64,000 bases of DNA from Pomacea canaliculata (Eukaryota > Mollusca > Gastropoda > Architaenioglossa > Ampullariidae). The stretch is from assembly GCF_003073045.1 (NCBI RefSeq), contig NC_037592.1:5569924-5633923 (forward strand), read 5' to 3'. Of this stretch, positions 2,367 to 23,754 are shown one piece after another. Below the pieces are notes generated by a model. It made no database searches, had not been told where the DNA came from, and was given only the letters and a program-made list of their open reading frames with translations. The number at the start of each line of letters is the position of its first letter. The first letter of the stretch is position 1. A program made the position numbers and the translations under genes.

Positions 2367-5300
2367 TTAGTTAATCTGAATACTGGTGGAAAAATACAAG
2401 ACAACAAGAATGATGCATATTCCAAGGATGAGGCCCAGGCCATGGACAAACACTAGCAGCTTGACGTCTCTGTTCAACATCCGTCCCGTCTGTGTAAAGA
2501 AAACACACAAAAAAAAAACCAAAATAAGTAGATAAAGAATGCGATACAGTCTTAAATTCATGTAAAATCTGTGCTTCACAAACGGGGAACGCAGGTACCT
2601 AGAAAGACATGAAGCGAAGAAGAAAAAGGATTATAAATGAAAGTTTTGCGGTTCTCAGATCAGATTCACTCGCATCCAGATAAATGACATCTACACCAGA
2701 AATTCAAATGCACATAATCTCTTAAAAAGTTTTTAGTAAACATTTCCTCTCTTAATAATAAAATAGTTGAATAAAATCTTAGTAAGTTGGCTAAGCATGG
2801 AGTTATGGAAGTATTAAAAAGTATACTTCAGCAGCGCTAAAAGAGCAACTTTATTTACTTCTAAGTTAACAAGTAATATAATAGTTTTGAAATAACGAGT
2901 AATTCAATGCTTAGTTGTTAGGTAACGACTAACGAGTAATGTAATAATTAGTTGCTAGGTAACGAGTAATTTACCTTGATGAAAGCATCTCTCATTTGCT
3001 CGTCTAAACTTTGACTCATGTCTGGTAACTGGAAAATCAAGACGTAAGTAAATGTCATAATGAAAGACGAAAGTACACAAACATTAATTACCTGTACACT
3101 AACTGATTTGTCTAGTGATAATTATTTAAGCGTTGAAAGAAAATTTTTATTATTATTGTTAGCGATTACGGGCTTAATGGCGACAGTGGAATATTTAATG
3201 CGGTCTGAAGCTGATCCTTTAGTGCAGTGCTACACTAGTGTCAGGGACCAGTATTAGGGACAGGAGGTTGTTGCCCCTGTCTTTCGTTTCTTAGAGATTG
3301 TTGCCCTTGCCGTGTATTTAAGATATGTTGGATAGCGTCGTGGTTTCGCGTCAGAACCCGACGTCATTTTATGACGTAATTTTAGTCGGACGCAAGTGAA
3401 AAATATTTTGGAAGAAAGCAGACGGCTGTGAGCAGGGAAGAGAGTTGGATAGAAAGTGTGTGTGGTGTTCGCTTGGGATATTGAGTGTGTATCGATCCCT
3501 GCTAATTTATCTGTGTGGTGCCGGGAGTATCTGTGTGATTTCCTGGAGTATATTTGTGGTGCCGGGTTTATCTGTGTGATTCCCTGGAGTGTATCGGTGT
3601 GGTGCCGGGAATTTATTTGTGGTGCCTGGGTCATGTGTTGACCCCCAGCAAATATATTTTGAGTCGTCTGTTAGGTGTCTGCTGAGTCAGCACCTATTAT
3701 TAGTAAGCTGCGGAACGTATATGTGATTTCCGCTGAACGATCGTGAGTGAGGATTTTACGTAGACGTGGGAATTGTGGATGTGAGTAAGTAAGACTATAA
3801 TGAAATATTCAGAAACATATGACAGTTCGTAGAATATTGAAAGGAACATGTGTATGTCGTCTTGGGACATGAAGAGAACTGTATGGAGTTGAAGATCTAC
3901 TGACTATGTGTATATATTTAGTTGATGATGGATTGATTTAAAGTTATTTTTATTTCCACGACAAATCTTTGTGCTTTTTGTTTTGTAAGAGGGGAGGAAT
4001 GTCATGAACGCGCTTTTATAAAATCTCTTTCTCACTCTCTCAACACGCACGCGTTCCCTTGCGTATTCTTTCAAACATAAAGCACAAAGATTTGTCGTGG
4101 AAATAAAAATAACTTTAAATCAATCCATCATCAACTAAATATATACACATAGTCAGTAGATCTTCAACTCCATACAGTTCTCTTCATGTCCCAAGACGAC
4201 ATACACATGTTCCTTTCAATATTCTACGAACTGTCATATGTTTCTGAATATTTCATTATAGTCTTACTTACTCACATCCACAATTCCCACGTCTACGTAA
4301 AATCCTCACTCACGATCGTTCAGCGGAAATCACATATACGTTCCGCAGCTTACTAATAATAGGTGCTGACTCAGCAGACACCTAACAGACGACTCAAAAT
4401 ATATTTGCTGGGGGTCAACACATGACCCAGGCACCACAAATAAATTCCCGGCACCACACCGATACACTCCAGGGAATCACACAGATAAACCCGGCACCAC
4501 AAATATACTCCAGGAAATCACACAGATACTCCCGGTACCACCAATATACTCCAGGAAATCACACAGATACTCCCGGTACCACCAATATACTCCAGGAAAT
4601 CACACAGATACTCCCGGCACCACACAGATAAATTAGCAGGGATCGATACACACTCAATATCCCAAGCGAACACCACACACACTTTCTATCCAACTCTCTT
4701 CCCTGCTCACAGCCGTCTGCTTTCTTCCAAAATATTTTTCACTTGCGTCCGACTAAAATTACGTCATAAAATGACGTCGGGTTCTGACGCGAAACCACGA
4801 CGCTATCCAACATATCTTAAATACACGGCAAGGGCAACAATCTCTAAGAAACGAAAGACAGGGGCAACAACCTCCTGTCCCTAATACTGGTCCCTGACAC
4901 TAGTCACTGAACATTCCAGAATAAAGTCCCTCTCGCGTCAAATTGTGTTGCGCGTCATCGAAACCACACAAGACGTCACATTTAAAATAAAAGACGTCAG
5001 CCTCACTGACGTCATCTCTCTTAGAGCGGTTACCATGTCAACGAGGGGGACATAGAGAAAGACTCCTCCAGCGATAGCCAGAATCCAGCGGTTGGCATCC
5101 GTTGTCTCCCCGAGGATGGTACCCGTCACCAGCCCCAAGCAGCAGACGCAGGCAGACAGGAAGTTGAGAAACAGCGCCCTCTTCATGGTCATTCCAGAGG
5201 CAATTAAAATGGCGATGTCACCTGGGAAACAAAACAGGTTCTGAATGTTAGTTTGCTGCAAACTTTAAGAAAAAAGTGGAAACAATTAATTAAAGAAACA

Positions 5301-8300
5301 TTTTTAAAAATTTTGTCCTGAAGAATAAGCGACTCATGATCTATTTCTATCAATGAAATCTGTGTCAGCCTCTCTAGACAAGAGACCTACAAACGTTCGC
5401 CCTCATTACTGTGAGCCAGACAGAGTGCAAAGTTCACGATGCTCAATGACTTCTCTATAAATAGGCCAAGATAATGACTCATAATAAAAACAGGCTCACG
5501 TGCCGTACAAACAGTCTGTTGTGCAAACAAAAGATTAACGTAAACACTTTACACAGTGCAAGAGGCAGCGGAAGGTCCTCTTGTAATGTATTCATCAATT
5601 ATTACACTCTGCACTGCACTCTATGTTCTGTTCACAATTTTAGACAAGCTGTAAGTAAACATCTCAACAAATGAAGCAGTATAGCAACACATCAACAAGT
5701 AAATAAAAAACATCATACCTCAAGTATTTTACTATTTTTACTTTAAGTATGAAAAACATTCTTCGCCAAAGGAAGAATGTTTTAATAACAGAACACATCT
5801 ACGAGAATATATTTATAAATCTTGTAATATATTTAGCAGTTTGAAAAGCTAACTCCCGTACTTTTTCTATATCATGGAATTTTCTTGACATGTTCTTTAA
5901 ACGTTCGACAATATCGTAATTTCATTCTACTAACCAGTTTCTTCATTCTAGTCTTTATGTCAAGTGTAAAAATTCGGATGGCAATTCCACTTTTTACTGT
6001 GTATTATACACAAGTAAAAATAGCACCATAACTTTAAAGATGATTAGTGATTAGTGTTGGAATGGTGGTTTAACTTTACAGGATGTCAGATACAAACCAA
6101 ATTTTAACATCTCAGTAAAAGGAATCTGTGTAGTCCAATGGTTAGTGAGGGAGCGTGCCAGAACGACTCCCCCTTAACTTTTCTGTTAAGCAGAACTATG
6201 TACCTGATTTTTCAGGTGAGGTAAATGAAAGCGGAGGACAAGGGCTGCTCTCCGCTTTCCTCGTGTCGTGCCTTAGACAAGGTGAACCACTTACTTTCAT
6301 TTTCTCTACGGCTACTTAGTGACTCTATCCCTTTATTTTGTATTATATTTGAGATCGCGATCTCTGCCTTTTTACGGGTAGTCAAGTATTAGCATAAGTT
6401 ATGGCACCCACCGAGTTCGTGGGGCAGCTCTTCGCACAGGACGGCGATGCTGATGGTGACCCCCATGTAGACGTTTTGCGTGAAGCTTGAGCCGATGGTC
6501 ATCCCGTCCACGAAGTTGTGGATGACGTCACCGGTCAGAACCATCCACGCCACGGTCTTGACTGGGCTGTTCTTTATAACTCCCTCGGTACTCATCTCCT
6601 TGCCGAGGGAAGGAGTCGGCAAATGGGAATGGCTGTGATCGTCTAAGCCGTTGACTAGTGCTGCCAGTCCCTCCTCCTCTGTATATTTTGATTCTTCAAA
6701 ATTCTCATGGCTCCTCAGCCGCTTCACCTGCATGCACACACACACATATCAATTTTAACATGTCCTGTACCAAATGTGATTAAAAAAAATACCCCTTACT
6801 CCCCTCCCCCGCAAAAATTTTGATTTTTGAAGATGCTAAATATAAGACAATTTACCCATAATTATAATGTACTCGGGGAAATCTTGACAATACTACACTG
6901 AAAGTATCTTCCTGTCTTATTAAATGTTTGTATGAGACAACACTTGAAGACACTAGTACCTCTCTGTCTCTCAGGAAACACTTGAGGATACGCTCGGACA
7001 TGAAGAAGATGTAGATGGATACCAGGGTCGTAACAGACTTCCATATATAGCTGTGCTTTATGTCCGGGCAGGACATGAGGTTGAATGCCTGACAACAAGA
7101 ATATCGACATCGAGAATTGACAGGAAAGTATAACACGTAAACAATTATTCAAGTACATTTTGTGTTCATGTTAAAAAAAAATAGTAGAAAAGCAATACAT
7201 CCTTCATGAGCATCCTTGGCACGTGGAGGAGAAGGAAAGAAAGTTTCGAGATGGGGAGAGAGTATAAATAAATGATCGAACGAAAGAACAAATGTAAAGG
7301 ATATGGTAGTTTCGCTTTAAAGACTCCTGTGTAGATTCGGATGTAATCAGCAATTACCTCTGGAATAAGGACTAAAAGACCCGTTCCCACTAGGGTTCCT
7401 GCTGCCATGGCAACAAGAAATTGCAGAAGTCTCTGGAAGAATGTCTTGGACATGACTGGTGTCAAAAGTCCTCCGATGTTAGATATGATGACGATTAGAG
7501 ATACAAAGCCGATCCCGTAGCCCCATGCTGCCAACAGAAAATAAATAAATAAATAAGATGTTAATCAGTATGTGGAATTGTTCTCCTACTTCTCTTCAAC
7601 ACCATCGTGTTAAATTTCTGACATGCAGGCACACGTGTGTGGCTGTGTGTGTGTGTGTGTGTGCAGGAGATGAAAAAGGAGAGATATTCTCTTCGTCAGT
7701 GAGACTGACTGACCAATCAACTGATAGTCTGAATGTAATGAACCAAATAGCTACAAGAAAGACGGTAGAAAGAAGGAACACAAAATGAAGGCGACCCAAA
7801 AAGCAGATGACAATTTTATCTTCAGAGGTAGGCAGAGGCAAGAGATGGGGATGACAGAAGCTGACAGGACAACAACACAAATATATACCTTGTCCAATGC
7901 TCGGCTTGTATTTGCTGGGGTCTCTAGGGGTCTCGTGCAAACAGCTGGGGTCCGCAGCTGACAGAAGCGCCTCAAGCACAGCTGACGGAAGCTGAGTGTA
8001 GTTCAGTCCCTTGGTGTCCGAGTGCCGTAGATATATGCTGAAAATGTTCTGGCACTGTAACATTAATTTACAGACACGCTTTTAATAATCTTTTTAATAA
8101 TGTGCTTTGTAGATGAGCATTGACTTTACTCGGTAGTAAGACCCTTAACTGCGGAAAAGTAATGTAAACATTACAACTCACAGCTCGGGAGCGAAGTAAG
8201 CATCATTCTTAATTAGAAATCGGATCCGGATCATTTATCTCCTTAAATAACTGCATTACAACCTGCAACAACACAAGTAGGTAACATTCCTAAAAAAAAT

Positions 8301-8638
8301 TCTCCCACCTTTTCATGATTCTGTGAACAGTTCCCGCTACTGTTTCCACTTTGTTTCAATTCAGAGTCGTTCAAATGCAGGTCTTTAAGTTGATTTTCAA
8401 CCCGATGTGAGACAATGCTGGATTGGAAGTTCATTTGGAGATGTTTGAGTAGCTGACTGAAATCCTCCAGGGATAAATAACCGCTAGGTCGAAATCGTTT
8501 GGCATACTCTTCATTTCTATCCATGAGTCCTGCAGGTAGACACCCTTCTGATTTCTCGTCCAATAAAAATGCTGTCGGTAAAATGTCCACCCAGAGTAAT
8601 ATTATAACGGCGAAGATCATACTTTGAATCTTCTCCAT
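2367..8638 (-). CDS. SLC39A14-like: ZIP-A: ZIP8/ZIP14-like metal transporter (complete)
   Basis: A plasma- or endosomal-membrane importer of Zn/Fe/Mn/Cd-type divalent metals (family knowledge). Coding exons (-): 8309-8638, 7889-8054, 7358-7527, 6960-7088, 6412-6727, 5034-5221, 2975-3028, 2367-2489. Together they make 1476 nt, or 491 aa; human ZIP14 has a very similar length. Every junction is GT-AG and phases match. Residues 1-25 look like a signal peptide, followed by an ectodomain with an N-glycosylation cluster (NSSGNCS). TM1 begins at WGYGIGF (about 167), TM2 ends at LVLIPE (222) and TM3 includes YIFFMSE. A His loop DDHSHSH lies at 294-300. TM4 carries HNFVDG (335-340) and TM5 EELPHELGD (364-372). 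The first His of the usual HEXPHEXGD is Glu, the hallmark of the ZIP8/ZIP14 branch. The last exon gives the final helix (VFVHGLGLILGICIILVVLY). It is a tandem paralogue of the gene at 11372-20301. ATG 8638 was chosen for its signal peptide and for matching ZIP-B. Confidence 0.93.
2872..2990. repeat. degenerate ~50-bp tandem repeat abutting an exon
   Basis: Two to three copies of a unit containing gtaacgagtaat and tagttgctaggtaacg lie immediately beside the splice donor of the 54-nt ZIP-A exon (2975-3028). The donor GTAAAT and the following bases are part of the last unit, so repeat expansion has reached the splice site. Confidence 0.55.
3239..4899. mobile_element. long palindromic (foldback-like) element in ZIP-A intron
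   Basis: The left arm (3239-3977) and right arm (4079-4899) are near-identical inverted repeats around a 101-nt loop. The ends read TGTCAGGGACCAG and its reverse complement, and the whole is flanked by CTAG (3235-3238 and 4900-4903), a likely 4-bp target duplication. The arms differ mainly by copy number of a ~43-bp minisatellite (around 4495-4620), which has more units in the right arm. The loop carries a purine tract followed by TGTCATGAAC, reminiscent of a polypurine-tract/LTR boundary, so a rearranged LTR-element origin is possible. No coding domain is seen. It lies between ZIP-A exons 6 and 7. Confidence 0.85.
4495..4625. repeat. ~43-bp minisatellite inside palindrome arm
   Basis: Consecutive units built on ccaggaaatcacacagat and actcccggtaccaccaatat. 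The left arm has fewer units in the mirrored position (about 3500-3600). This difference is the main asymmetry of the palindrome. Confidence 0.7.
6121..6350 (+). repeat. possible tRNA-derived SINE remnant
   Basis: The stretch opens with a box-A-like gtccaatggttagtgagg, followed by GC-richer sequence than its surroundings. No clear box B was found. It is in a ZIP-A intron. This is a weak call. Confidence 0.25.
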
Positions 8639-9407
8639 GTTTGCCAGCTATTTCCTAAAAAATAAAAAGCAGCCCGTTAAAGTCACCATATCCGATTCCT
8701 CTAATTTTTGTAGTCTTTCACATTTTAAGCACCAACGAAGAAATATTAGTTACATGCCAGGTTCACATTGTCTCACTGAAACCATTTGTTCGTCCCCCAC
8801 TGAATTCACATCTCCAAAAACAATAAAAAATATGAATACAAACAATCGAGTAAAAAAAATATAAAAATAAGAAATGGTATGTCGGAACTACAAAAAAATT
8901 AATTAATTACTTAATTGATCAATTAATCAAAGAAGATACAGTGCTACAAAATTATTTTCAATAAAAACTTCTAAACAGCACAAAGCATGATCACTCCCAC
9001 CGTTGAAATGTTACTGATGGAGGTAACAAGAACCAGAAGTCGGTCTGCTGGCACCGGCACAGAGCTTCATCTGACGATGCAGGTCAACGGATTATGCGCA
9101 GCACACGTGAGGCAGCTACTCGCAGATTAAAATTGTCCGCAAACAGACTGGAGGAAGGATGATAAGAATGATTATCTTCGGATGACAAACAGGTCTTGAC
9201 CTCAGACTGTTGTTTTTGTGTTGACGTCCGCGCGTGAGCCCCTGTCAGATGCTTCCATCTCTGTTCCAGTGTCTTGTTTCTCTTTCTGTCTTTCATGTAC
9301 CCCACTTCTATCAAAATCTGTCCCCCTTTTTGTCTGTGTGCTAAATTTCCTCTTTTCTCTTACTATCCATAGTTCTTTTCTTACGTGTCTTTCACTCTCT
9401 GTTGAAG

Positions 9408-9513
<106 letters not shown>

Positions 9514-9609
9514 AATGTTCAAGTCCCTTATCTCTCTGTTCAAGTGTTTATCTTCTCTCTAAATCTGTTCTAGTGCCTCTCTCTAAGTGTCTTGCTTCTC
9601 TCCGAGTGG

Positions 9610-9872: not shown

Positions 9873-10240
9873 AAATGTCTTCATTCTTTCTCTATGCAAG
9901 TGTCTCCCTCTTTTTCTAAGTGCTGATCCTTCTTTCTCCTTTCTCTCTTTGTCGGGTATTGGTGGTGTGAAAGTAATTTGAATGAATCCCAGCACAGTAA
10001 TGCTGTTGATCAATTTGTTTACTTTGAACTAATCAAATAAATTATTTAAGTGTGATCGACATTGATCTTAATTTGTATTCTGTCTCACTTTGAAATGATA
10101 ATTGCTGACCAAATAAACTTTAAAGTTCCCTCTGGTCCTTTCAACAAGGACTGAGTTTTTAGTTTTTAAATTAGGCAGTCGTGTCTGTCTCTCTTTCAGT
10201 TCCACTCAGTCCTTCTTTTTACAACTTTGCTATCGCAGGA

Positions 10241-10264
10241 ACACACACACACACACACACACAC
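10241..10264. repeat. (AC)n microsatellite
   Basis: About 12 AC dinucleotides. Confidence 0.9.
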
Positions 10265-11371
10265 AATATCACAAAATTGAGTAAGAATTAGGCAGAATCT
10301 TTTTACATTTTACCAAAAAAATTATTTTTAAAAACAAAGGTATAAGAATCCATGTCCAGCATAGAAATAACAACTTGCACTGGGACAAAGCCAGACTTTT
10401 CATCAACCTCTTTACTTCTTTCATGTCTCTTTACTCAATATATGTTTTCTACCATTCAAATAGAAATTTCTCCAACAACAAGACTGCAAAGCAGGCTTTT
10501 TATAACTCTTTTTGCATAGACTCGGAACAAGAAGTACTAAATATTTGGTGAAACAACCTGGCTTTAACAGTAATTATTTTCCATTTTTCAAATCTCGTTA
10601 ATGCATATATTCAAAATAACAAAATGTGTAAAATGGACGCTTGCGTCCTCAAAATAAGGAAAGGCAAAAATGGAACACACGGTTTACAGTATAAAATACA
10701 GGACAATATACATGTCATTGCTGCATCATATAATCATTTCACTGATTATGTTTACAAAACAGTGATTACATGCAGTCAAAGTTACATACAGTGTGGAAAC
10801 ATTACTTGAATCTCATTCACAAAGCCCTCACGAGGGCTCAGGCTGGTGTTTGGCACACAATACTGATTATTCATACAGGTATCCACAACAGAGAACATTC
10901 TCATCCTACTCACTGATGTTGTTTGTCGTCTGAACAAGAGGTCAGCAGAAACGGTGTTAAATCAACTATTGAAATAAATGTTTTTTATTTGATTTCTTTA
11001 AGGGTTTTTTTGTACACAAGGACACAACAACTTAATTTGCTTTTAATTAAGCGCATTCATTTCTAGATTTCTGGACTCATTCAGCACGATGTCATCAAGG
11101 TATGCAAGCTGCCAGCGATAGGAGGAGGAAGAGGAGGATGGAGAGGATGGGGAGAAGGAGGGACAGAGAACCTGCTGAGGTCACTTCTCGCATGTTGGAA
11201 GTCGAATTCGCCTTTCATGAGAATGCTCATCTGGAATGACTAGATGTCGGTAGGGTGGAGGTGTTCACGGGGTTGGATTGTCGACTTTACTGAGTTCATT
11301 AAGCAAATCATGAAGTGTGGAAGCTGAAGCATCTGGCTGCATGATGATGCCAGAATAAATCTGCTTGTTCT

Positions 11372-11494
11372 CTAGATTGTCATCAAGTGCCCAGTGCAGT
11401 ACACTACGGACAAGATGATGGCCATGCCCAATAGAAATCCAAGCCCTTGCAGAAACATCAGATGCTTAAATTCGTTTCCAAAGGCACCTTTGTT
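11372..11494 (-). CDS. ZIP-B distal last exon
   Basis: This is a 123-nt exon with acceptor tcttttcttccag and stop TAG at 11372-11374. It codes for 40 aa, the same length as the ZIP-A last exon. It contains the final transmembrane helix and a short tail (CTGHLMTI). It sits 4.2 kb downstream of exon 7, beyond the alternative terminal exon. Confidence 0.85.
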   Translation of the reverse strand, partial: NKGAFGNEFKHLMFLQGLGFLLGMAIILSVVYCTGHLMTI

Positions 11495-14400
11495 CTGGAA
11501 GAAAAGACACCACCAGGTGAGACAAGCTGTCCTTAAGATTCACATCATACATGCGCATGAAAGTTAACAGTTTCTCACTAATGGTGGTTGTGATGGTGGT
11601 GTTGTTGTGTGTGTGAATGTGTCAATCTCTGTGTGTGGTAGGTATGGGAGTGTGGATATGTGTGCGACAATGTAACAGTTAACGAGTGGATGAATAGGTG
11701 ATAGTGGGTTTCTTTTCTCAGCTTTTCCAACCATAAAACAAAGGGGAAAGGATGTAAGAAAGTATTAACATATCTATTAACTACTCTCTTGACAAACACA
11801 AATTCTTTATTAAACTTTTAAGTTAAGATTACTCTATTCCAGGATGAAAACTTGGCTGAAATTTTATCTCCATTTTTCTACAAAAGATTGTAAAATATTA
11901 TATAATAATGTAAAGCACGTTCAACAAAAGATGCAGTAGTGAAAGAACAAAGCGATGTAGCCAAATGCACCAAAAGCTTTTAAATAAAATATAAAAATCT
12001 GCTGAATTCGCAAAGTAAGCTGGGACAGTATGATGATGATGAAAGAAAGATAAATAAAGAAGAGGAAGTCATAACAGTAGTCAAGCTTTATGGCCTTATT
12101 AAAAAGCCTTCCCTCTCAGTGGGATGGAATTTTTTTCTATTGGATCAAGCCCAGGACAATATATTTCGTTCCCAAATGTGGGTGAATACCCTTCTTCTGT
12201 TCACAAAATAAAAGCTTGCAAACATCTTTTAGGCCAGAAAAAGGTCAACAACAAACCAGGACAGTGCATGGATCCGTTTAAGACAAGGCTTCAGAGGGGA
12301 GAGCTGATAAAATATGTGACACAAGATTTTGACCTTTTTCTGGGCAAACTGATGTTTGTAGGTGTGTATCTCGAGAGCGGATGTTATTAACTCAGATTTG
12401 GATAAATAATATCTTGGACTGAGCTTCACCCACTTATCACAACTAATACTTCCACCACAGTAGTCCCTTCATCCTCCTCTCTAAATATCAGCATAGTAAC
12501 AAAATGAATTATTTCTATAACTTAAGAAATACTTTTATTTTTAAACTTACAAGCGTAAAGTTTTCTCATAATATTAGCAATTATAAAAGCTAACAGCTCA
12601 ACATGACTAAAACAAATCTGACTGAGAAAAGGATATCAAACTGGTATAAATACAAAGAGAGGAGAGAATGAATGCCCAACATCATCGGATGTATAAGATA
12701 AGGATGTCTAGCAATAAATACGTAAGACAAGAAAGTAATAAATGAATGTCCAACATCAAGGCAGTACACAAAAGAAATAACAGCTATCATAAAAGCAGAG
12801 TACTAAGCAATGGGAGTCCAGTATCAAGGCAGTATATGTAATAAATCAGTGTTAATATGGCAACAGCAATGTAAGCGTTTGAAAGCTGCCGAGTGGCAAC
12901 GTCAGTCACGTGCTGCTGTTAGTCAGATTCTCTTCTCATGGCTAGGAAAATGTTGAAGTTCTCACCAAAGTCTTGTGACTGGACCTCCGTGGATTCGAAC
13001 CTCCGGACTAGAGGCTGTTTCTTTGTGTTTCCTTCATCAAGTTGTTTACCTTTATTCGTTGCTCTTATTTCAATTCTTGATGTCATCTTTTTCATCCTGG
13101 AGTACTTGCCCACCCTCCATCTCCAGCCTTATTTTTTCTCTGTTCTTTTCTTGGTGTCTCTTTATGCGTTCATCCTTGTTTTACATGGAAATATCACTTT
13201 ACGCTGGTGAGTCCTCTATCTGAGCAGCAGATAGGGGAAGCTGATGATAGCTGAATGGTCAGAGAACCGGTACTCAAGACAGGATGCAAGCAAGGTAGTT
13301 GGTTCGATACCCATGATGCGCAGTTACTCTTCTCCCTCTGCTCACTACATCTTGACTTGTTGAGTGAGTACCTAACTATTTGGGGAAGTGAGAGAGACCG
13401 AAGGAGAGAAGTGGTAACATGTAACATTTACGTCATCTAAAAACCAACATGAAGCTGACAGTCTTTCAAAAAATGGTTTCAGTCAGCTGTAAGTGGTTCA
13501 TCAGGTCCAGGACACAACCTGTGGAAGCCCTACCCTGTATCTTCAGGCTGGGTGGTCTGTACCAAACACTAACAACTAGGTTACGGGACTTCAAACCCTT
13601 TTTACTGATCTCAATCAAGGACAACCCAGTTTTGGGAAATGCAAGTTTCTTTCCTTTATTTTCGTATAAACATAAAATGTCACAAATTCTCGTGTTTAAA
13701 AATAGAGATAATTAATAGGAAGGAAGGTAAATGGAGAAGATACATTGTTCAGATTAACGGAACAATTAGTGTACTAAATACAAAAATAAAATTTAAAGAC
13801 ATTAAATTTTCTGCCTCATACGGCAAACAGATGTTGAACATCATGTTGTAGTCCTACGACTAAAAAGTAAAGGTTCTGATGCTCGGTTGTACGGGGGCTT
13901 TTAAAAATAGTTTGAAATTTATCCCGTGATGTTTACAGTATATTTAGAAATATTTTCAATAAGTTGCCTAAAAGATGAGCAGCTTTGAAACAATTTATAA
14001 AAAAGACAATGACACTAATTTCACAATGTTTTTGTTGAATACAGCAGTGTATTCACAGAAGTTTCTGATGGAATGTTCTTTCATATCTGACACTACAAAA
14101 GGCGACTTGGTGACGCTCTTCTGCTGTCGGTCAACAGGTCAACAAGTCACACGGTTGTGACCTTTACTTCTCCGAGATAAACATCGGTACAATTAATGAC
14201 TAGGTTGACTTTGACAACCGGGGTATAGTCATACCTCGAAGGCAACCTAGGAAAACTGTCCAAAACATTTAAAGCATTTTGAATGACTCTAATGAGATAA
14301 TGAGCGTATATTGATGGAAATCCCCCTTTGAGAAAGATTCATGTTCGATTAATTTTGACATATTATTATTTGAACGTGAGTTGGAAAATCTGAATGAAAG

Positions 14401-17400
14401 ACAATTTGACGTTCGGTTCATATTTATATTTATTCCGCTTAAACTCTGTATTTCAAATAATTCCGCAATTTAAAAAAAAAATAAAGCTACATTTTTAAAT
14501 ACACTGGCTACAGTTTTTGAAATTTTTCTTATCCCAAACCTTGATTTTTCCTTTGGCTAAACATGATTTACTATCCACGAAAAGCAAAAACATGCTGTAC
14601 AAAAGTAGGCTATTTATTATAGGTAACTGGTACTTTTTACTTAGATCATATCCAAACAGTTTTTTATTTTCACGATTTTATGCTCTTTTCTTTTGTTACA
14701 CGACAAAGATCATTTACTTTAATAATCATGATGTTCTTAAAATTCACAGCTAGTTAATTTAATGACTAGTTTAGACGGAAGAGCAAACTGCCCCGAGCTT
14801 TATTTCTGGAAAGCTTCCAGTTTTGACAGAAATCAAGTTTATGAAAGGAGAAAAAAAAATCATCTCAAATATCTACACAAAAATATATTTTTGGCCATAA
14901 TATTATTTACTTTGGGTTTTGTTCTCAAAATGTTTGATAAGATATGTCTTTGCAAGCTAAATGTACAGAAAGGTTCAAAAAATAATTTCTATAACATTTG
15001 CTAATAACATTTATTTTAATTGGTGTGGTTTATGAGAATCCCAAACAAAAATAGAATCTTCAAGCAATCACTGAAATAATTTTTGTTCGGCGATAATGAA
15101 AGTAATAAACGTTTATTTGAGATGTCTTCTCCAGTTAAAATATAGAGGGCTTTACGAGCAGCCAATCTATTTCAAGAGATTCATATGGAAAGGTAGCGAG
15201 AAAGTTTCTTTACAAAAATAGAAGTTTTAGTATCCAAGAATATATATGTATGATATTTATCGGGGATAAAAATATTGTATTGCATTTTTTTAAATAAAGT
15301 GTCTCATTGTCGTCTTCATCATTGCTGTCATCAGCAACATCGTCACTTTGTGGCGGTTTTTTTTTTCCTTGGCAAACATTGGCACATTTTCTTCACTCTT
15401 TACACAAACTGTTCAGAGATAAAATTGTCTCACGAAAGCCAATCTCGTGTCTATGAACAATCACAAGAAAATGGATTCCAAAGATCTTCCTCAGTCCTTC
15501 GCCAGGATCACCATCGGGGCCCACGGGGGCCAATATTTTGGGTGGGGCTAATGGGCCACATGTCATCAAAAGGCAGGAATTAACGCTGTCACGTGAACGA
15601 CGCCGAAGATGATACCATAGCCTACCAACAGCCCAAGGGACTGATAAATGAACAGTGCACGTACCTCTTGGACTGACTCCTTCATGGTCAGGTCCAGGAT
15701 CTCGCTCATTTCTGGAAGCTGAAAACAGAAAAAACAAAAACGGGGGACAGAGCAGGGATCTCACTTGTGGTTACTTATCCCACATCACTAAACAGCCCAA
15801 AGAGAGACAGATGGATCTTAATTGTAAGCATCACACTTTCGCTGTCCCTGCCCTGAAGATTTCATCTCACCAGCCGACATCCTTCAACCTCTTGGTCACC
15901 TTGATCGCAATCACGGGGACCTAAGCCCTGACCTCTGCTTTCTTCGTGGAAAACCCATCGCTGTGATACCGTGTTAGCGATTTAATCCATTAACCTTAAT
16001 CTTTCTCGAGATTACCTAATCAGTTTGTATCAATAATTTGCAGGAACTGTAACCTAATCTTACTCTCGTGGGGTGTGCGTGGATTCGAACCCTCCAACTA
16101 AACATTTTTGGTAGCCTGCTCAATTGAAAGAAAAGTTCTAGACCACTCAAGCATCATGGCCAATATGGTTTTTGAATGTGTCACCATTTATGACATACAA
16201 ATATTAAATGACAGATCATATTTTTTATAATCAACGTAACAAATTGCATTTCGTCTGGTAAGTGTTGAGCTAATAACATAAAACATATTTCACACTGCAC
16301 AGACAATAATGTCAGATGAGTAAGGGGCAGTGAAAAACTCATAATTCATGATATGTTACTAACAGTCTACAGAAGAGGCGTCCACGTGGACTTTGCTACT
16401 CTTCAGAAAAGAGTTATTGCCGGAGTCTCGTGAGTACTCGCGGGGTTTGAAGGTTGTACATACATCATGTGTATCTATGGGTGTCGGAATGCAGGACACG
16501 TTTGTATTTCAAATAAAACCCACAAAGATAAAAAAAGATATATAGGTGAACATCTACAAGACAGTAAGTAATTGACCTCTCCATTTAAAGGACAAAGTAA
16601 CTTTTGGGTGAGTAAGGGTAAAGACAACCCAGATATTCTGTAGAAGTCAGACGATGAGGCAGATATCAATAGAATGTGTTTGTATGGCTGTCTAAGTATG
16701 TACAATCTAACTCTTCTTCCTACCCATCCATAGACTCTCTGTCTGTATCTGTGTCTCTCACCATGTCTACAAGAGGTACGTAGAGGAAGAGTCCTCCAGC
16801 CACGGCCAGGATCCAGCGGTTGGCCTCCGTGTTCTCGCCCAGCACGATGCCCAGCACCAGGCCAATGAAGCAGACGCACGCAGACAGGAAGTTGAGAAAC
16901 AGCGCCCTCCTCATGCTCATCCCAGAGTGAAGCAAGATGGCAATATCGCCTGCAAAGGTGTCCAATGAACACGTTTTTCATTTTGGTTTCATTGAAAGAA
17001 ATCACCAACACGACATTGAAGCAACAGGGCAAGATGGCGGAGAAGAATATTCACCGATGTCATGAATAAAAATTAAATTCTTGTCATAACCTAGCAATAG
17101 GACCATACTTAATTTTTACAAAGGAACGAATACTTTAAAGCTTTGATTTTAGTAGCTACGTTGTGACTCTATGAACCTCCTGCAAATGTCAATAAATAAT
17201 TACTTCCTTTGTACATTTCTTCAACACCCGATTCTCTTCTCATGCCATTCTGTTACTGCTGTGTTATTGCAGGGTAGATGGTGAAGGATGGATGCGAGGA
17301 CCACGTGTGAAAAAGCAGATTCTGTTTATCTTCCCACCCTTTTAAATCATCACCGTTATCGTTATCGTTATTGTCATCGTCATTGTCACAGTCATTGCCA

Positions 17401-20301
17401 TTTGGCTGTCCGGTGGCGCAACGGTTAGCCCCTGTCACCAATTCAGCTGTCTGGTGTTCAGCTCTCGTCTCGGGCACTCTGTTCTTTCTCTGGCATCTGT
17501 TCACAGGCTGGCGTCCTTGCCAAGTTGCTGGCTTGGCGTAAAACACCCATTGCAATCATCATTGTCATCATCATGGTCAATGTCGTTGTCATTGTCACTG
17601 TCATTCTGCCTCTCATCATATTTTACATCACATACCTAGCTCGTGAGGCAGCTCCTCGCACAGGACGGCGATGCTGATGCTGACCCCCATGTACACGTTT
17701 TCCGTGAAGGCAGCGCCGATCGCCAAGCCGTCCACGAAGTTGTGGATGACGTCACCGATCAGCACCATCCATGCAACCGTCTTGACGGGGTTCTTCTTCT
17801 TCTTCTTCTTGACCTCACCATCCACGTTCTTCTCTATGGTTTTGATGGAGAGGTCGGGGAAGTGGGAGTGGCCGTGGACCTGGTTTTCTTTGTCTTCGAA
17901 ATTGGTCAGCGCCACCTTCTCGTCCTCCGTGGGAGGATCCACAGTAAACGACTCTTGTCTGCGGATCCGCTCAAGCTGTCCAATAACAGAAACAAACAGG
18001 TGATAAGGTTCGGGTCGTCCATAAGAAAGATAATAGATTATTCAGTCTACCGCTTATTCATTGTGTGTGAGAGAGTGATTGTCATCGTCGAAGGCGTAAA
18101 AAAAAAAAAATGAAGGCGGGTGAAGCAAAGTGTTCAAAACCTGACAGGTGTTGTAAATATCTAGCTTCAGCCCCTTAAGGGTCACGATACCTCTTTGCCT
18201 CTCAGCAAACACTTGAGAAGACGCTCTGACGTAAAGAAGACGTAGATGGAAATGAGTGCTGTTGCTGCTTTCCATATGTAGTCCTCAGCAAGGTGCTCGC
18301 ACGACGCAATATGGAAAGCCTGCACACACGTCCAAATAATGGTTCTTAAGAACATAAATAAATAAGTTAATAAATAAGATATTTCAAGCTTGAAAAAGTT
18401 TCCTTCATGTGTGTTACATTTAATTTCGCGAAAGCATGCAGAACAAATATTCATGAAGTGTATTTCCACACGAATGAGAAAGTTCGTCTCTGCATGTAAC
18501 GAAGGCTTTGCACAAGTCACAAGATTTTTTTGGTCTTTTTTTTTTTAACCAGTTTCTCTGGGTTTTTCACTATACTGCAATCTCTTATTTTCGACTTTTC
18601 TAGGTGATGGGTGAGGTCAAGTCAAGTGAACTTTCTTCGCAGAAGCTGTTTTGTTAATGATGTTGCTGAGATCTTGAAACTATATTTATATATCTCGAAA
18701 ACACATACGCATACTTTAATCCCAGGCTAAGGTTGCTATTGGTGATGTTACTATGATAACGATGGCGATGAACTCAGATTAATTCTGACCTCAGGAATAA
18801 GCACCAGCAGCCCGGTGGCAGCGAGAGTGCCGGCTCCCATGGCCACCAGAAACTGTAGAATTCTTTGGAAGAATTTTTTGGACATGACGGGCGTGAGTAG
18901 ACCACCAATGTTGGAAATGATGCAAATGAGACACACGAAGCCAGATCCGTACCCCCATGCTGCAAAAGACAAAAGGGTCCTCTTCACACCATCGTGAACC
19001 TTCGAGGGCTTAAGTTCAGTGAGGATACAGACACAAAGAAGGATGGGCAACGACCAGAAAGGTTACGGAGGTCACAAGGTACGTACCTTGCCCTGTCGTC
19101 GGCTTGTTGAACATGTTGGACTCCACGGGTTCTTGTGCACATGCGGGGTCCACCACCGACAGCACCGCCTGCTGTAGGGCATCGGGCAGATTAGTGTAGT
19201 TGAGCCCCTGGTTGCCTCTATAGTGGTAGTAGATGTCGGACACCGTTAGACACTGTTGGAAATGATAAGAAAATGAGATTAGGGACATGTTGGACATAAG
19301 TACTTGAAGTAAAGACAAGAGAATGTCACAGATGAGTGAAAGTCGAATACGTTGTTGTTATGAGAGGACGTCTCAGATGCTGGATTCTGTCAGAGAGCAA
19401 CAAAAAAATGTCACGGTTGAAAAAATAGCAGACGTGTTCGACAGAAGAACACCACTGTGGTATAGATGTCGGACTTGCTAGACATTTTTAAAATAGACAA
19501 GAGAGCGTTTCTGTTTAAATCCCTTTTTGTAGATACACACGCTTTCCTACGAATACGGGACACGAAAAATTTTAGAAGAAACTAAATATCATTGCTAGAG
19601 CAGATGTCGGAAATGGTCAAATACTTTCAATTAACAATGAAACATCTAAGAAGAATAAAGAAAGGTTCCCAGTCGTCAACATTTGGAAGAATAGCATCCA
19701 TTTAAGACACCTGCACTTCTGGCTTTTCGTTCCGTTTGGTCTTTCTCTCATCGTCCCTTTTGCTGTCCAGTTTGGACTACAAATTTGAAAGGCCATCAAT
19801 AGAGACCAGCCATTGTCAGAAAGATATAATGTTTAAATTTCGTAACATTTTGTTGCTCTCTGCGTCCGGTAATATGCTTCAAAGGAAGAATAAGAATTTA
19901 AAAAAAACAACAACAAAGAATAAGAAGAACAAAAACACAAGCAAACCAAGAGGAAGAAAACCATGACAAATAAATCTGACCCCAGAACAGTTGAAGGATT
20001 TTTCTTCGTTTCCTGAAGGTGTAGTGGTCTCTTTGCACGGATGTTCAGTGACTACCGGCATCACAGATGTTGGCAGCGGGTTTTTCTGCAGCGCCATCAG
20101 CAGGTTGTGGAAATCTTCCATTGACAGACCATCGCGCGCCGTCTGGAATCCGTCCGCCACCCTCTTGTACTTCTCGAGAGTTAGGTTGGCCAGGCACCCG
20201 GAGTTCAGGACCTGGTCCGAGGTTTGTTCCTGGCTCAGGGAGGAGCTGGTCGCCAAGACTAAGAGTCCAGCGCAGCACATCCAGAAGCGACTCGACTCCA
20301 T
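11372..20301 (-). CDS. SLC39A14-like: ZIP-B: ZIP8/ZIP14-like metal transporter (complete, distal isoform)
   Basis: Tandem paralogue of ZIP-A. Coding exons (-): 19981-20301, 19087-19252, 18790-18959, 18191-18319, 17636-17975, 16762-16949, 15665-15718, 11372-11494. They total 1491 nt, or 496 aa. Exons 2, 3, 4, 6, 7 and 8 have exactly the same lengths as in ZIP-A (166, 170, 129, 188, 54, 123 nt). The N-terminal signal peptide ([12 protein letters not shown]) is followed by an ectodomain. A His loop NQVHGHSHF lies near 293-301, then a run of six lysines. TM4 carries HNFVDG (340-345) and TM5 EELPHELGD (369-377), so the ZIP8/14-type Glu substitution is shared. Exon 7 encodes [18 protein letters not shown] and ends in a strong donor (GAG|GTACGT). 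The distal last exon at 11372-11494 gives [20 protein letters not shown]. Donors of exons 1 and 3 are the weaker GTCAGA. An alternative end is listed separately. Confidence 0.92.
12985..13015 (-). repeat. tRNA-like box B remnant
   Basis: The minus strand reads GGTTCGAATCCACGG, a good pol III B box. No matching A box lies at normal distance, so this is probably a SINE remnant rather than a tRNA. Confidence 0.3.
13485..13560 (+). repeat. dispersed repeat, copy 1
   Basis: Shares ctgtaagtggttca, ctgtggaa and gccct in the same order with 32345-32410. An unclassified interspersed repeat. Confidence 0.4.
15566..15718 (-). CDS. ZIP-B alternative proximal terminal exon (read-through of exon 7)
   Basis: If the GTACGT donor at the end of the 54-nt exon 7 is not used, the frame stays open for 33 more codons to TGA at 15566-15568. 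It encodes [20 protein letters not shown] and a tail ending LIPAF. That stretch aligns with the final helix in both distal exons ([24 protein letters not shown]) and with the ZIP14 C-terminal helix, so it is not random intron sequence. The resulting protein would be 488 aa. It is most simply a duplicated last exon fused to exon 7, used by intron retention and proximal polyadenylation. Confidence 0.75.
   Translation of the reverse strand, partial: LPEMSEILDLTMKESVQEVRALFIYQSLGLLVGYGIIFGVVHVTALIPAF
16050..16165 (-). repeat. tRNA-like SINE in ZIP-B intron
   Basis: The minus strand begins ggccatgatgcttgagtggt (A-box-like) and about 70 nt later has GGGTTCGAATCCACG (B box), spaced like a tRNA with a long variable arm. 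No clean cloverleaf can be drawn by eye and it lies within an intron, so a tRNA-derived SINE head is more likely than a functional tRNA. Confidence 0.4.
17408..17560 (+). repeat. tRNA-derived SINE copy 1
   Basis: The A box ccggtggcgcaacggttag and B box gttcagctctcg are followed by a conserved body (ggcactctgttctttctctg, catctgttcacaggctgg) and tail ggcgtaaaacacccat. The same family is at 42226-42356 (-), 42357-42525 (+) and 61709-61893 (+). It lies in ZIP-B intron 5. Confidence 0.75.
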
Positions 20302-20432
20302 AACTGAAGAAATTTCCGCTCCGAGCTAAAGATGAAGAGCGCGGCTATGTGGATGGACTGGCTTGAGTTGTCTTCTCTAGGCTTGCGTTCTCGGTTGGAT
20401 GGACGCCCTCGATCTCCTCGGCTTTTGCATCC
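20302..20432 (-). other. ZIP-B 5' UTR part of exon, with uORF
   Basis: A plausible acceptor (aatcttttgcag) lies at 20433-20434 on the minus strand, suggesting that a non-coding exon lies upstream. The leader after it contains an early ATG that opens a 17-codon uORF closed before the main ATG at 20301. Translational control is possible but unproven. Confidence 0.4.
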
Positions 20433-20537
20433 CTGCAAAAGATTTTCAGAAAGACAATTACCACGTGACAGAGTGTGATCAACTGTTTTAGTCATCGGTC
20501 TGAAAGGTCAGATGCGGATAATGAGACTGTAAATAAC

Positions 20538-20990
20538 TTTTCTTTCGTTCTTTTCTTCTTTTTTTCCTTGAATTCATTTATTTGTTTTACCTTTAATCCA
20601 TTCATTCTTTCTTTCCTCGTTCGTTCATTAGTCTCTCATTTCTTTCATTTATTATTCTTTTCTCTTGTTCTTTGTTCTTTCGTTGACACTTTCTTCATTG
20701 TTTCTTTTATTATTATTTTTTCTTTCTTCTATTCTTTCTCTCGTTGATTTATCTTTGCTCTCACTCCTTTATTCTGTATTCATTTTTTCACTCTTTCTTT
20801 TATTTATTATTCTTTTTGCTACTTTCTTTCTTTTTCATTCTTTCTTTCATACTTGCTATTATTTTTTCATTCTTTCGCTCATTAATCTATTATTTTTCTT
20901 TCATTTGACTTTTGAATTTTAGTTTACTTAACTTTTTGTTTCTTTCTTGCTTTTTTCGTTTTTTTTCATTTCTTTCTTGACTAGCCCCAC
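20538..20990. repeat. pyrimidine-rich (TTTC/TTCTTT)n tract
   Basis: About 450 nt of almost pure T/C on the plus strand, i.e. a purine tract on the transcribed strand of ZIP-B. Its ORFs (SLFLLLLFF-type) are artefacts. Confidence 0.9.
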
Positions 20991-23754
20991 CACCACCACA
21001 CACACGCACACACTTTTTCTCGCTTGCTTCATGCTTCCTTTTTCTCATTGAACGGTTACAGCACTTCTATTCTTCTTCGCCATCCTCTTCTTTTTGGAGG
21101 TAGTGCTGTAGTGGAAGCCACGATGATCGTGGAGTTTAGACAATTTTTCTTTTTTATCTTGGTTTTTTTCATCCCATCCCTTCTTTCTTCCTCCCTTCCC
21201 TATGTTCCACAAAGACATATATGTACAGATGACCGTCGTGCCCTGATCACTCGACGAATTATTCAACAGACTGAGGTGCTGAAGAGCTGACAAGCTGGTA
21301 CATGACACAGCTCTCTTGACCTACTAGAAGATAACTTCTTAGACAGTCAGATGACTCCGTCACATGACTGAGACAATCAACACTGACAACGCAAAAAAAT
21401 TAAAAAAACCCCAGTAAACTTGATTATTTCAGCAAATAAACAAATAAACAAAAATCAATAAATATAGAAATAAATGAGAACCTTTTCGTGAAGTACATTT
21501 TACTCTGATAAATAAGTGTTCATTTGTATCAGTCTGGACTGACCATCAGTGTAGATACATAAATGAAAAACAGAAAAGAATTAACCAGGGTAGGCAACAT
21601 GGGAAAATAGGATCAGGGATATTTCTCTTTCAGACTTACTAATAATTCAGAAATTAAGCTGATGACGAATTTTAACACAGGTAAGTTGACATGTAAGCTG
21701 AAAGTCAGACATACAATTCAGAGAATTTACCATTCTCAGCTACTCATACCGCCATGTATGTACTTCTCTCACTAAAAGAATTTTTTCCGGACTGTTACTA
21801 CGGAAAAAGTGTCGTTAACAAACCTTCAATTAATTCTTCGGCTTCTATTACTGCTTCGCCATCCAAACCTGTATAAATTTGTTTCTTAAGTACTTCATCA
21901 TCACCCCTACAATCTTTTTCATCGCTGTCAAGACAATAATTATTGCTGTAGATAATGGAACAAAGAGCAAAGGCGTTTCAAATAGAAAAGACAACAGCAT
22001 CAGCAGCAACATCAGCAACACAAGAAGAAGAAGAAAAAGATGATGGTGATGATGACGACGATGATGATGATGTCAGACAGTAAGATGCAAGCTCAAACTC
22101 ACGGTCACTTACGTTGTTGCTCCGTGTGTGAGGGACTGACGGGACGGACGGACAGGAGGCGAATGGCGGGGCGAGACGGTGTGCAAGGTAGGTATATGTC
22201 TACTACCTACCACCCTTCAGTTATCAAGTACCTGTTGTGACGTCATCGGGGACTCAACATAGGTCTAACAACCGCTCGAGTGTGGCTGGCAGTTTTGAAG
22301 ATATCAGTAATCGTTCCATAAATTGTGCTGGTGTATGTCGGAGCAAGTGGAGGAGAGCTGAAGAGACAGAAAAATACTCACGGCGTGAACTGTTGACTTG
22401 ATTGTGGATTCGCCGCCACTTATACTACTGTCTAAAAATATCGTTTTAAATAAGTATGTTGGGCTCTGTGCGCAATTCTATTTTCCGTGATCTTGGTGAA
22501 TATTTTTTTGTCTGGTGATACAAGTCGAAAAAGATAACCATGCACAGAAAGAAGACAAGTAGTCTACCACCACTGCCGAAGGATGTGCTGAGGTGGCCAA
22601 AGCTGCATCCCTCTGGAAGTGTCTTAGCTGCGCATTAATTGGGTTTATCAGTAAGCATTCATGATATCAATATTTTCAAACAAATTTCATTCTAGAAGAC
22701 ATTGAATTCATCCTAATGTCATATAAGAACTGGATTTCAAGATCTATAACTCTAAAAAGAATGTTATTCTGTTTTTTTGACTGTGGCATTTTTTTCTATA
22801 CAAGGGTCCAAACTTCTTGAGATGAAATTTGAGTAAGAAGTGACCGTAAGCAAAGATGCTGGTCAGAAATAATAGACACTTTCAGTATTTTCGAGCACTT
22901 GATCAGTTTCTGACTCTAATGAACTAGGAGAAAAGTGGCTCTTCTTTTTGCAAAACCACCTTCTTGGTGTAATGTGATTATTGTGTGGATCGTCTGGACT
23001 TGCCATAAAAATATATCTCTCACTCACAGCAAATATTGTTTCTTACTTAGCATTTTTTCTGGAAAATACAAAGTTTATTTTGTTTTGTTTGAATTATATC
23101 CTTTCTCACCTTCGCCTAAAAATAACCACGAATGTGTCTGAATACAACTGTTAGGTCTTTCCCAGCATCGCTATTTGACTTTGACTATGGACTTGCGAAA
23201 TTTTCTCTTCTTTCTCCCAGTTTTCTGTATTTATGTGCATTTCTATAGAGCAAAGCCCTGCTCTCTCTCACACACACACACACGCACGTAAGCATGCGCA
23301 CCTACACATCTATATATTGCTATATTTGATCATTTAATTTGCCTGTCCATATCAACCTACATATATATCAACAAGGATGTAACTATATGTGTAATTTCTT
23401 TGTGTATTTTATGAATGTTAACTTATTTATTGAATCATGCATACAGACAGACAAGGTAGTAATAAACTGTTCAGAAGTTAAAAATGCGAAGTTTTATGGC
23501 AGGCATTTTTTGTAGCTAACCAGTCCGCTCTTTCTGTACTTTCATTTCTTCGGTGTATAAACTTTTTCTTGAAATGTTAGAATATTACTTAGCAGGTAAT
23601 GATCTTACTAGTGCATTTTGTACAAAGTCAAGAGGTGTTATGTCCATGTCTAGTAAACTTTTACAAGACGAAAAGTAACGATCACTAATGACATGGATCT
23701 GCCGTGCATGTCCCTGGCAATAATTACTGTTTCATATCAGCAAGTTTTTTAAAA

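Follow-up and report, generated by a model that had tools for sequence, protein, structure and literature searches.

A ZIP transporter gene of Pomacea canaliculata with two homologous candidate ends for its last transmembrane helix

Two tandem ZIP genes and the two candidate ends of ZIP-B

The window considered here is a 64,000 nucleotide (nt) stretch of Pomacea canaliculata DNA (contig NC_037592.1, positions 5,569,924 to 5,633,923 of the forward strand), which carries two tandem ZIP genes, hereafter ZIP-A and ZIP-B, both on the minus strand. Models predicted from the window sequence give each gene eight coding exons, with identical lengths in both for exons 2, 3, 4, 6, 7 and 8 (166, 170, 129, 188, 54 and 123 nt, respectively). 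In ZIP-B, the last transmembrane helix of the protein, helix 8, has two candidate coding segments: a distal exon 8 and the frame that continues beyond the splice donor of exon 7, i.e., the read-through. The two are homologous; the older end is probably the read-through, and ZIP-B may choose between them. The features concerned are:

20301..11372, minus strand: ZIP-B, 8 predicted coding exons
15719..20301, minus strand: ZIP-B exons 1-6 and their introns, sequence-predicted
16949-16762, minus strand: ZIP-B exon 6, ending in phase 0 ahead of exon 7
15665..15718, minus strand: ZIP-B exon 7, 54 nt, 18 residues; acceptor ttttcag, donor GAG/GTACGT
15566..15664, minus strand: ZIP-B read-through, 32 codons plus stop, helix-8-like; exon 7 plus read-through make 153 nt
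11495..15664, minus strand: ZIP-B intron 7 if the internal donor is used, 4170 nt
11372..11494, minus strand: ZIP-B distal exon 8, 123 nt, alternative helix 8; acceptor cttccag
15112..15117, minus strand: candidate proximal polyadenylation (poly(A)) signal AATAAA, the first after the read-through stop, 448 nt downstream; others follow
10984..10989, minus strand: candidate distal poly(A) signal AATAAA, 382 nt past the exon 8 stop; an ATTAAA comes earlier, at 324 nt
8638..2367, minus strand: ZIP-A, 8 predicted coding exons
2975..3028, minus strand: ZIP-A exon 7, 54 nt; reading past its donor meets a stop after 8 codons
2490..2974, minus strand: ZIP-A intron 7, 485 nt
2367..2489, minus strand: ZIP-A exon 8, 123 nt; the sole helix 8 found for ZIP-A

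The layout described in the original prediction is recovered by these models: exon 7 has 54 nt in both paralogues and ends at GAG/GTACGT in ZIP-B, a distal exon of the same 123 nt as in ZIP-A lies about 4.2 kb downstream, and the frame past the donor stays open for 33 codons, namely 32 plus the stop that ends at 15566. The ZIP-B donor fits seven of nine consensus positions, the range for the 14 donors of ZIP-A and ZIP-B being 5-8. As in a composite terminal exon, an internal 5′ splice site (15665/15664) is followed by an in-frame stop (15566). Predicted products have 488 amino acids in the run-on form and 496 in the spliced form, in which the loop between helices 7 and 8 is eight residues longer. 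No ZIP exon between ZIP-B exons 7 and 8 was found among the best candidates of two genome-wide searches.

Two further observations concern the same region. Exon 7 (15665-15718) is flanked by phase-0 introns, and splicing of exon 6 to exon 8 would keep the frame and drop the LPEM motif; a third form without exon 7 is possible in both genes as judged from these phases. Directly past the read-through stop lies a G+C-rich patch (15466-15565; 100 nt at 54% GC vs. 36% in the post-stop intron), with an apparent small hairpin as judged by eye.

Against the Pfam ZIP profile (PF02535, curated cut-off 35.1 bits), ZIP-A scores 184.3 bits and ZIP-B 199.5 bits in the spliced and 205.0 bits in the read-through form, values that place both genes in the ZIP (SLC39) family; ZIP-B cut at exon 7 scores 198.5 bits and the bigger gain thus comes from the read-through. 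A 10-residue motif of the EEXPHELGD type, not HEXPHEXGD, is present in ZIP-A, ZIP-B and a third gene of the same genome (locus L012), and CHELPHE(L/I)GD in four others (L009, L010, L011 and L014). We take EEXPHELGD replacing HEXPHEXGD to mark the ZIP8/ZIP14-type subgroup of LIV-1 ZIPs. By this motif, ZIP-A and ZIP-B are classed as ZIP8/14-type metal transporters. They share 257 of 478 aligned residues and differ at 73 of 125 fourfold sites (Jukes-Cantor 1.13; NG86 dS 1.48); on these distances the pair is old.

Homology of the read-through to helix 8

Hereafter RT denotes the ZIP-B read-through, and A8 and B8 denote exon 8 of ZIP-A and ZIP-B. When the last 30 residues before the stop are compared ungapped with the stops in register, 12/30 are identical between A8 and B8, 11/30 between B8 and RT and 9/30 between A8 and RT, bearing out the predicted alignment of the read-through with the final helix of both distal exons. 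Of the open, stop-ended 30-codon segments in the window, 1253 in all (reference exons and RT included), RT comes third after both reference exons with a score of 74, the next segment having 19, and we therefore consider its match to be beyond chance. Since the window controls lie far below the B8-RT match, ZIP-B carries tandem homologous terminal coding segments within one gene. A score of 74 was reached by none of 100000 shuffles of the RT residues and by 26 of 100000 class-preserving shuffles.

For a test independent of A8 and B8, RT was compared with helix 8 of five other ZIP genes. It scores 128, a value attained in 4 of 100000 shuffles, and the next best of the 2171 open 25-codon windows on both strands of ZIP-B intron 7 scores 34. 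The reference for a ZIP14-type helix in this work is a same-genome gene with the ZIP8/14-type motif, in place of ZIP14 itself. All eight helices compared, RT included, share a GxxxG in register. When the whole genome was searched with the spliced 58-residue end, two places came up, namely exon 8 and the stretch made of exon 7 and the read-through (residues 1-53, E 2.4e-5), the latter value being partly owed to the common exon 7 and the search being insensitive, as ZIP-A exon 8 was missed. Nucleotide comparison of the flanks and 3′ untranslated regions of RT and both exons 8 yielded only words of 10-14 nt with E of at least 0.6. A sequence search of solved structures was of no help, its best matches being bacterial ZIP entries (e.g., 5tsa, E ~6e-5) that stop short of helix 8.

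The original prediction also held that a random intron would not read in this way, which is true of the homology and not of openness or hydrophobicity. Five of the 14 introns of ZIP-A and ZIP-B are open for at least 32 codons (97, 63, 35 and 33 codons, plus RT itself), and reading through ZIP-B intron 1 likewise gives a hydrophobic tail. With four other introns reading through 33 to 97 codons, we rejected openness and hydrophobicity as evidence for RT. When the five other intron read-throughs long enough to be scored were compared with the helices of the relatives, the best reached 14 vs. 128 for RT. The unusual property of the read-through is its homology alone.

The probable original end and the likely age of the duplication

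Nine stretches of the same genome, with other ZIP exons and some neighbouring DNA, were used to compare gene ends, which were located for five LIV-1/ZIP14-type genes; L013, L015, L016 and L017 belong to other kinds of ZIP and are excluded from the five. All five have a single last exon that starts in phase 0 with [LIV]P[EQ][ML], as exon 7 does, and runs unbroken through helix 8, with 50 codons in L012, 52 in L014, 42 in L010 and 48 in both L009 and L018. The L018 exon is counted as the end of L011, 10.7 kb past L011 exon 6, by position and similarity. Downstream of the L011 ZIP gene and ahead of this exon, a frame at ~8540-9130 of L011 contains FFDLEKAYD and presumably resembles a LINE-type reverse transcriptase.

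L012, which stands nearest to ZIP-A and ZIP-B in the body tree, ends in an exon of 153 nt, the same as exon 7 plus read-through. With residues numbered from the beginning of the last exon, helix 8 has its first glycine at 21, 23, 25, 25 and 28 in the five relatives, at 29 in the read-through form and at 37 in the two spliced forms. A single open frame likewise holds helices 7 and 8 in eight further, more distant loci (L001-L004, L006, L008, L015 and L016), which for L001-L004, L006 and L008 was judged from profile matches reaching position 321-322 without stops. L001-L008 were assessed by profile search alone, L005 being the L015 gene and L007 apparently the L008 gene; L015 matches ZIP-B about as well as L014 does (67.8 bits).

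The unbroken last exon of the relatives, together with the same 153 nt in L012, indicates that the gene probably ended originally in the read-through, of which the distal exon 8 would be a copy, the spliced form with the longer loop being derived. This is the reverse of the direction first proposed, in which the read-through was a last-exon duplicate fused to exon 7. A second helix-8 end was not found past L012, where the best other window on the gene strand scores 22 within L012 and 31 in the 9.9 kb that follow (L021) vs. 88 for its own helix. Similarly, ZIP-A intron 7 holds no recognisable helix-8 remnant, the best of 83 open sense-strand windows scoring -28 vs. 128 for RT.

As for timing, ZIP-A and ZIP-B are sisters in the body tree (99/98) with L012 next (94/92, not starred), and in the helix-8 tree RT, B8 and A8 form a group apart from the helices of the five relatives (91/92, which falls short of the star level of the tool). 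From this grouping and the common 54-nt and 123-nt exons, we infer that the helix-8 end was duplicated in the common ancestor of ZIP-A and ZIP-B.

Retention of both ends since then was considered with neutral decay simulations (20000 runs), placing half of the A-B divergence (0.57-0.74 per site) on the ZIP-B branch and counting as survivors those with an open frame, an equal score and the stop in place. Over this range, RT survived in 2.2-0.3% and B8 in 0.9-0.1% of the runs, and a variant with another score, started from the read-through itself, left 0/2000 survivors. We argue from these models that neither end was free of constraint for most of the time since the ZIP-A/ZIP-B split, which says nothing on the present-day use of both. 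Matches at codon positions 1, 2 and 3 point the same way, being 22, 27 and 9 of 41 for A8-B8 (Fisher 1e-4), 14, 20 and 9 of 31 for RT-B8 (p 0.027) and 13, 21 and 6 of 31 for RT-A8 (Fisher p 0.0016). Such asymmetry agrees with constraint on both ends, and one constrained partner could yield part of it.

Elsewhere in the window, ZIP-A intron 6 contains a large inverted repeat (3234-4904) with arms at 3508-3983/4073-4548 (476 nt, 99% complementary) and further arms at 3234-3599/4539-4904 (366 nt, 98%), which may be a young foldback element or DNA transposon lying ahead of exon 7. A long gaca tetranucleotide array occupies 9400-9520, between ZIP-A and ZIP-B.

A possible choice between two helices, its alternatives and its precedents

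The balance tips modestly towards ZIP-B having a composite terminal exon that gives rise to two versions of helix 8, with an ancestral duplication after which ZIP-A lost the original helix and became fixed on the duplicate. In this model, the internal donor would compete with the proximal polyadenylation site. If the donor at 15664 is ignored and cleavage takes place at the proximal site, exon 7 would continue through the original helix 8 to give the 488-residue form; if the donor is used, exon 7 would be joined to the diverged duplicate 4.2 kb downstream, giving the 496-residue form with its longer loop.

The dimer-mediating domain of BbZIP is made up of its helices 2, 3, 7 and 8, and cysteines introduced into helices 3 and 8 form cross-links within the dimer (PMC9873690). 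If ZIP-B is built alike, an exchange of helix 8 should therefore alter the dimer or scaffold face and spare the metal site, which is coded by earlier exons. By this analogy, an effect of the alternative end on dimerisation is at least as likely as one on sorting or stability, the effects proposed originally. The tail beyond helix 8 is short and, we assume, lies outside the cytosol, so that a cytosolic sorting signal within it is unlikely; the helix 7-8 loop, with its eight extra residues in the spliced form, is presumably cytosolic. More tentatively, we speculate that an old helix-8 switch is still live in ZIP-B and has been settled in ZIP-A on the derived helix, making two transporters with one metal site in which splice choice sets dimer partners or location. 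We hold this wider scenario to be possible rather than probable.

A number of points weigh against the composite terminal exon and its proposed history. The evidence base is the sequence of one genome, and the exon boundaries are without exception predicted ones. From the stop to the nearest AATAAA or ATTAAA downstream, the distance is 448 nt for RT, 324 nt for ZIP-B exon 8, 88 nt for ZIP-A exon 8 and 326-812 nt for four related genes, which is weak evidence given how common such hexamers are in AT-rich sequence of this kind. The helix-8 tree was built from 30 columns, and its branches are long. The simulations take present-day sequences as proxies of the ancestors and assume the half-divergence; at 0.3 per site, survival rises to 18.5% for RT and 17% for B8, so that a recent loss of either end would still fit, and a variant with the L012 exon as start and another score gave 12.6% at 0.3, 1.6% at 0.5 and 0.15% at 0.8. 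The L012 and RT helices are offset by one residue although their exon lengths are equal, and mean helix-8 scores to the five relatives (RT 25.6, B8 28.8, A8 31.6) leave the older copy undecided on residues. The end of L017 was not resolved, and in the distant ZIP gene L013 (4151-4550) helix 8 has its own last exon behind an apparent phase-2 intron at a position that differs from that of ZIP-A and ZIP-B. Unbroken ends are thus not universal in this genome and, because L013 has an intron before helix 8, a split ahead of this helix is not as such unique to ZIP-A and ZIP-B. Finally, ten residues of the exon 8 leader compared with the end of exon 7 give a score reached by 5229/100000 shuffles (1775/100000 for the last four residues), i.e., little homology, and the idea that the leader is a doubled exon 7 end, which would explain the eight extra loop residues, is suggestive only.

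The alternative that survives best, though we find it doubtful, is that ZIP-B uses the distal end only and that the read-through is an undecayed fossil of the former last exon and by now mere intron. The donor of ZIP-B exon 7 is on a par with the rest of the donors in ZIP-A and ZIP-B, ZIP-A has the exon 7-exon 8 form only, so that the donor-using form should work in the sister gene, and function lost recently would leave the frame open, as the simulations at low divergence per site indicate. A fossil would nevertheless have to retain its frame, stop position and helix-8 pattern along with the codon-position signal of RT-A8, and to fit the ZIP profile better than exon 8 does, whereas in ZIP-A intron 7 no recognisable remnant is left.

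The converse, a ZIP-B with the read-through end only and an exon 8 that is a relic inherited with the ZIP-A arrangement, is unlikely. It would give ZIP-B the same ending as five relatives and the better family profile fit, and constraint on ZIP-A by itself could produce part of the A8-B8 asymmetry. Exon 8, however, retains its acceptor, 123-nt length, frame and stop, and its matches to A8 are unevenly spread over the codon positions (Fisher 1e-4).

It is quite improbable that the split between exons 7 and 8 was original and that a copy of the last exon was later fused to ZIP-B exon 7. ZIP-A with the split form only, the undecided helix-8 residues and the intron before helix 8 in L013 are compatible with it; but in the five nearest genes for which ends were located the last exon runs on unbroken from an identical start, its length is equal in the closest of them, and the L013 intron lies at a different position, apparently in a different phase. 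We give very little credence to the idea that a third tandem ZIP gene was lost and left its 3′ end as ZIP-B exon 8, with no relation to ZIP-B transcripts: the genes are in tandem and exons 7 and 8 are 4.2 kb apart, yet the two genome-wide searches showed no intervening ZIP exon among their best candidates, and phase, acceptor and 123-nt length agree with ZIP-A exon 8. Chance, by which an intron merely happens to read as a hydrophobic peptide, is hardly credible, since the 5/14 open introns and the hydrophobic ZIP-B intron 1 that speak for it are set against a best score of 14 vs. 128 for RT.

If both ends are used, as the composite terminal exon model supposes, one ZIP gene would swap a whole transmembrane helix of the scaffold domain by splice choice, with a tandem sister in which the choice has been fixed by loss, and the control of dimerisation or trafficking by helix 8 would become testable separately from metal transport. 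More generally, an intronic-looking frame beside a good donor can be an original exon, which a one-isoform annotation would miss.

Among the matches listed in searches for papers on ZIP 3′ ends or Pomacea ZIP genes, no title or abstract start describes this arrangement, coverage being partial and no proof of absence. Tandem duplicated terminal exons with alternative use are already known, including a molluscan precedent. In the oyster alternative oxidase CvAOX, the terminal exon 10 is tandemly duplicated and expression was shown (PMC5589949). Like ZIP-B, this is a molluscan gene with a tandem duplicated terminal coding exon in which both copies have a stop and homologous C-termini; unlike in ZIP-B, where the choice would lie between an internal 5′ splice site and a poly(A) site, an alternative 3′ splice site selects between its copies (PMC5589949). 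They are also less diverged than those of ZIP-B, 15/41 residues differing in C. virginica (PMC5589949).

The metal transporter DMT1 (SLC11A2) resembles ZIP-B in having alternative 3′ terminal exons, 16 and 17 (PMC4683092). No iron-responsive element was found near the ZIP-B ends in an Rfam scan of 10000-21000 on both strands, which gave six matches up to E 5, none of them reaching its gathering score. We take DMT1 to belong to a different transporter family than ZIP.

Drosophila pip has tandem homologous terminal exons that are mutually exclusive and alternatively chosen, a layout similar to that of ZIP-B; it has eight tandem clusters (PMC9013439), whereas ZIP-B has two ends, with a copy that spans only the second half of the old last exon. 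In a composite terminal exon, an unrecognised donor lets the exon extend to an intronic poly(A) site, the IgM heavy chain being the classic case of intronic polyadenylation (PMC5928244). The ZIP-B arrangement would be of this kind, in that an ignored donor would give a run-on exon and a different C-terminus; IgM gains or loses a membrane anchor, whereas the ZIP-B outcomes would be homologous versions of one helix, of which the run-on form is apparently the older. What appears particular to ZIP-B, then, is an apparently older run-on form, a choice that falls on one transmembrane helix and a sister gene with the derived choice only.

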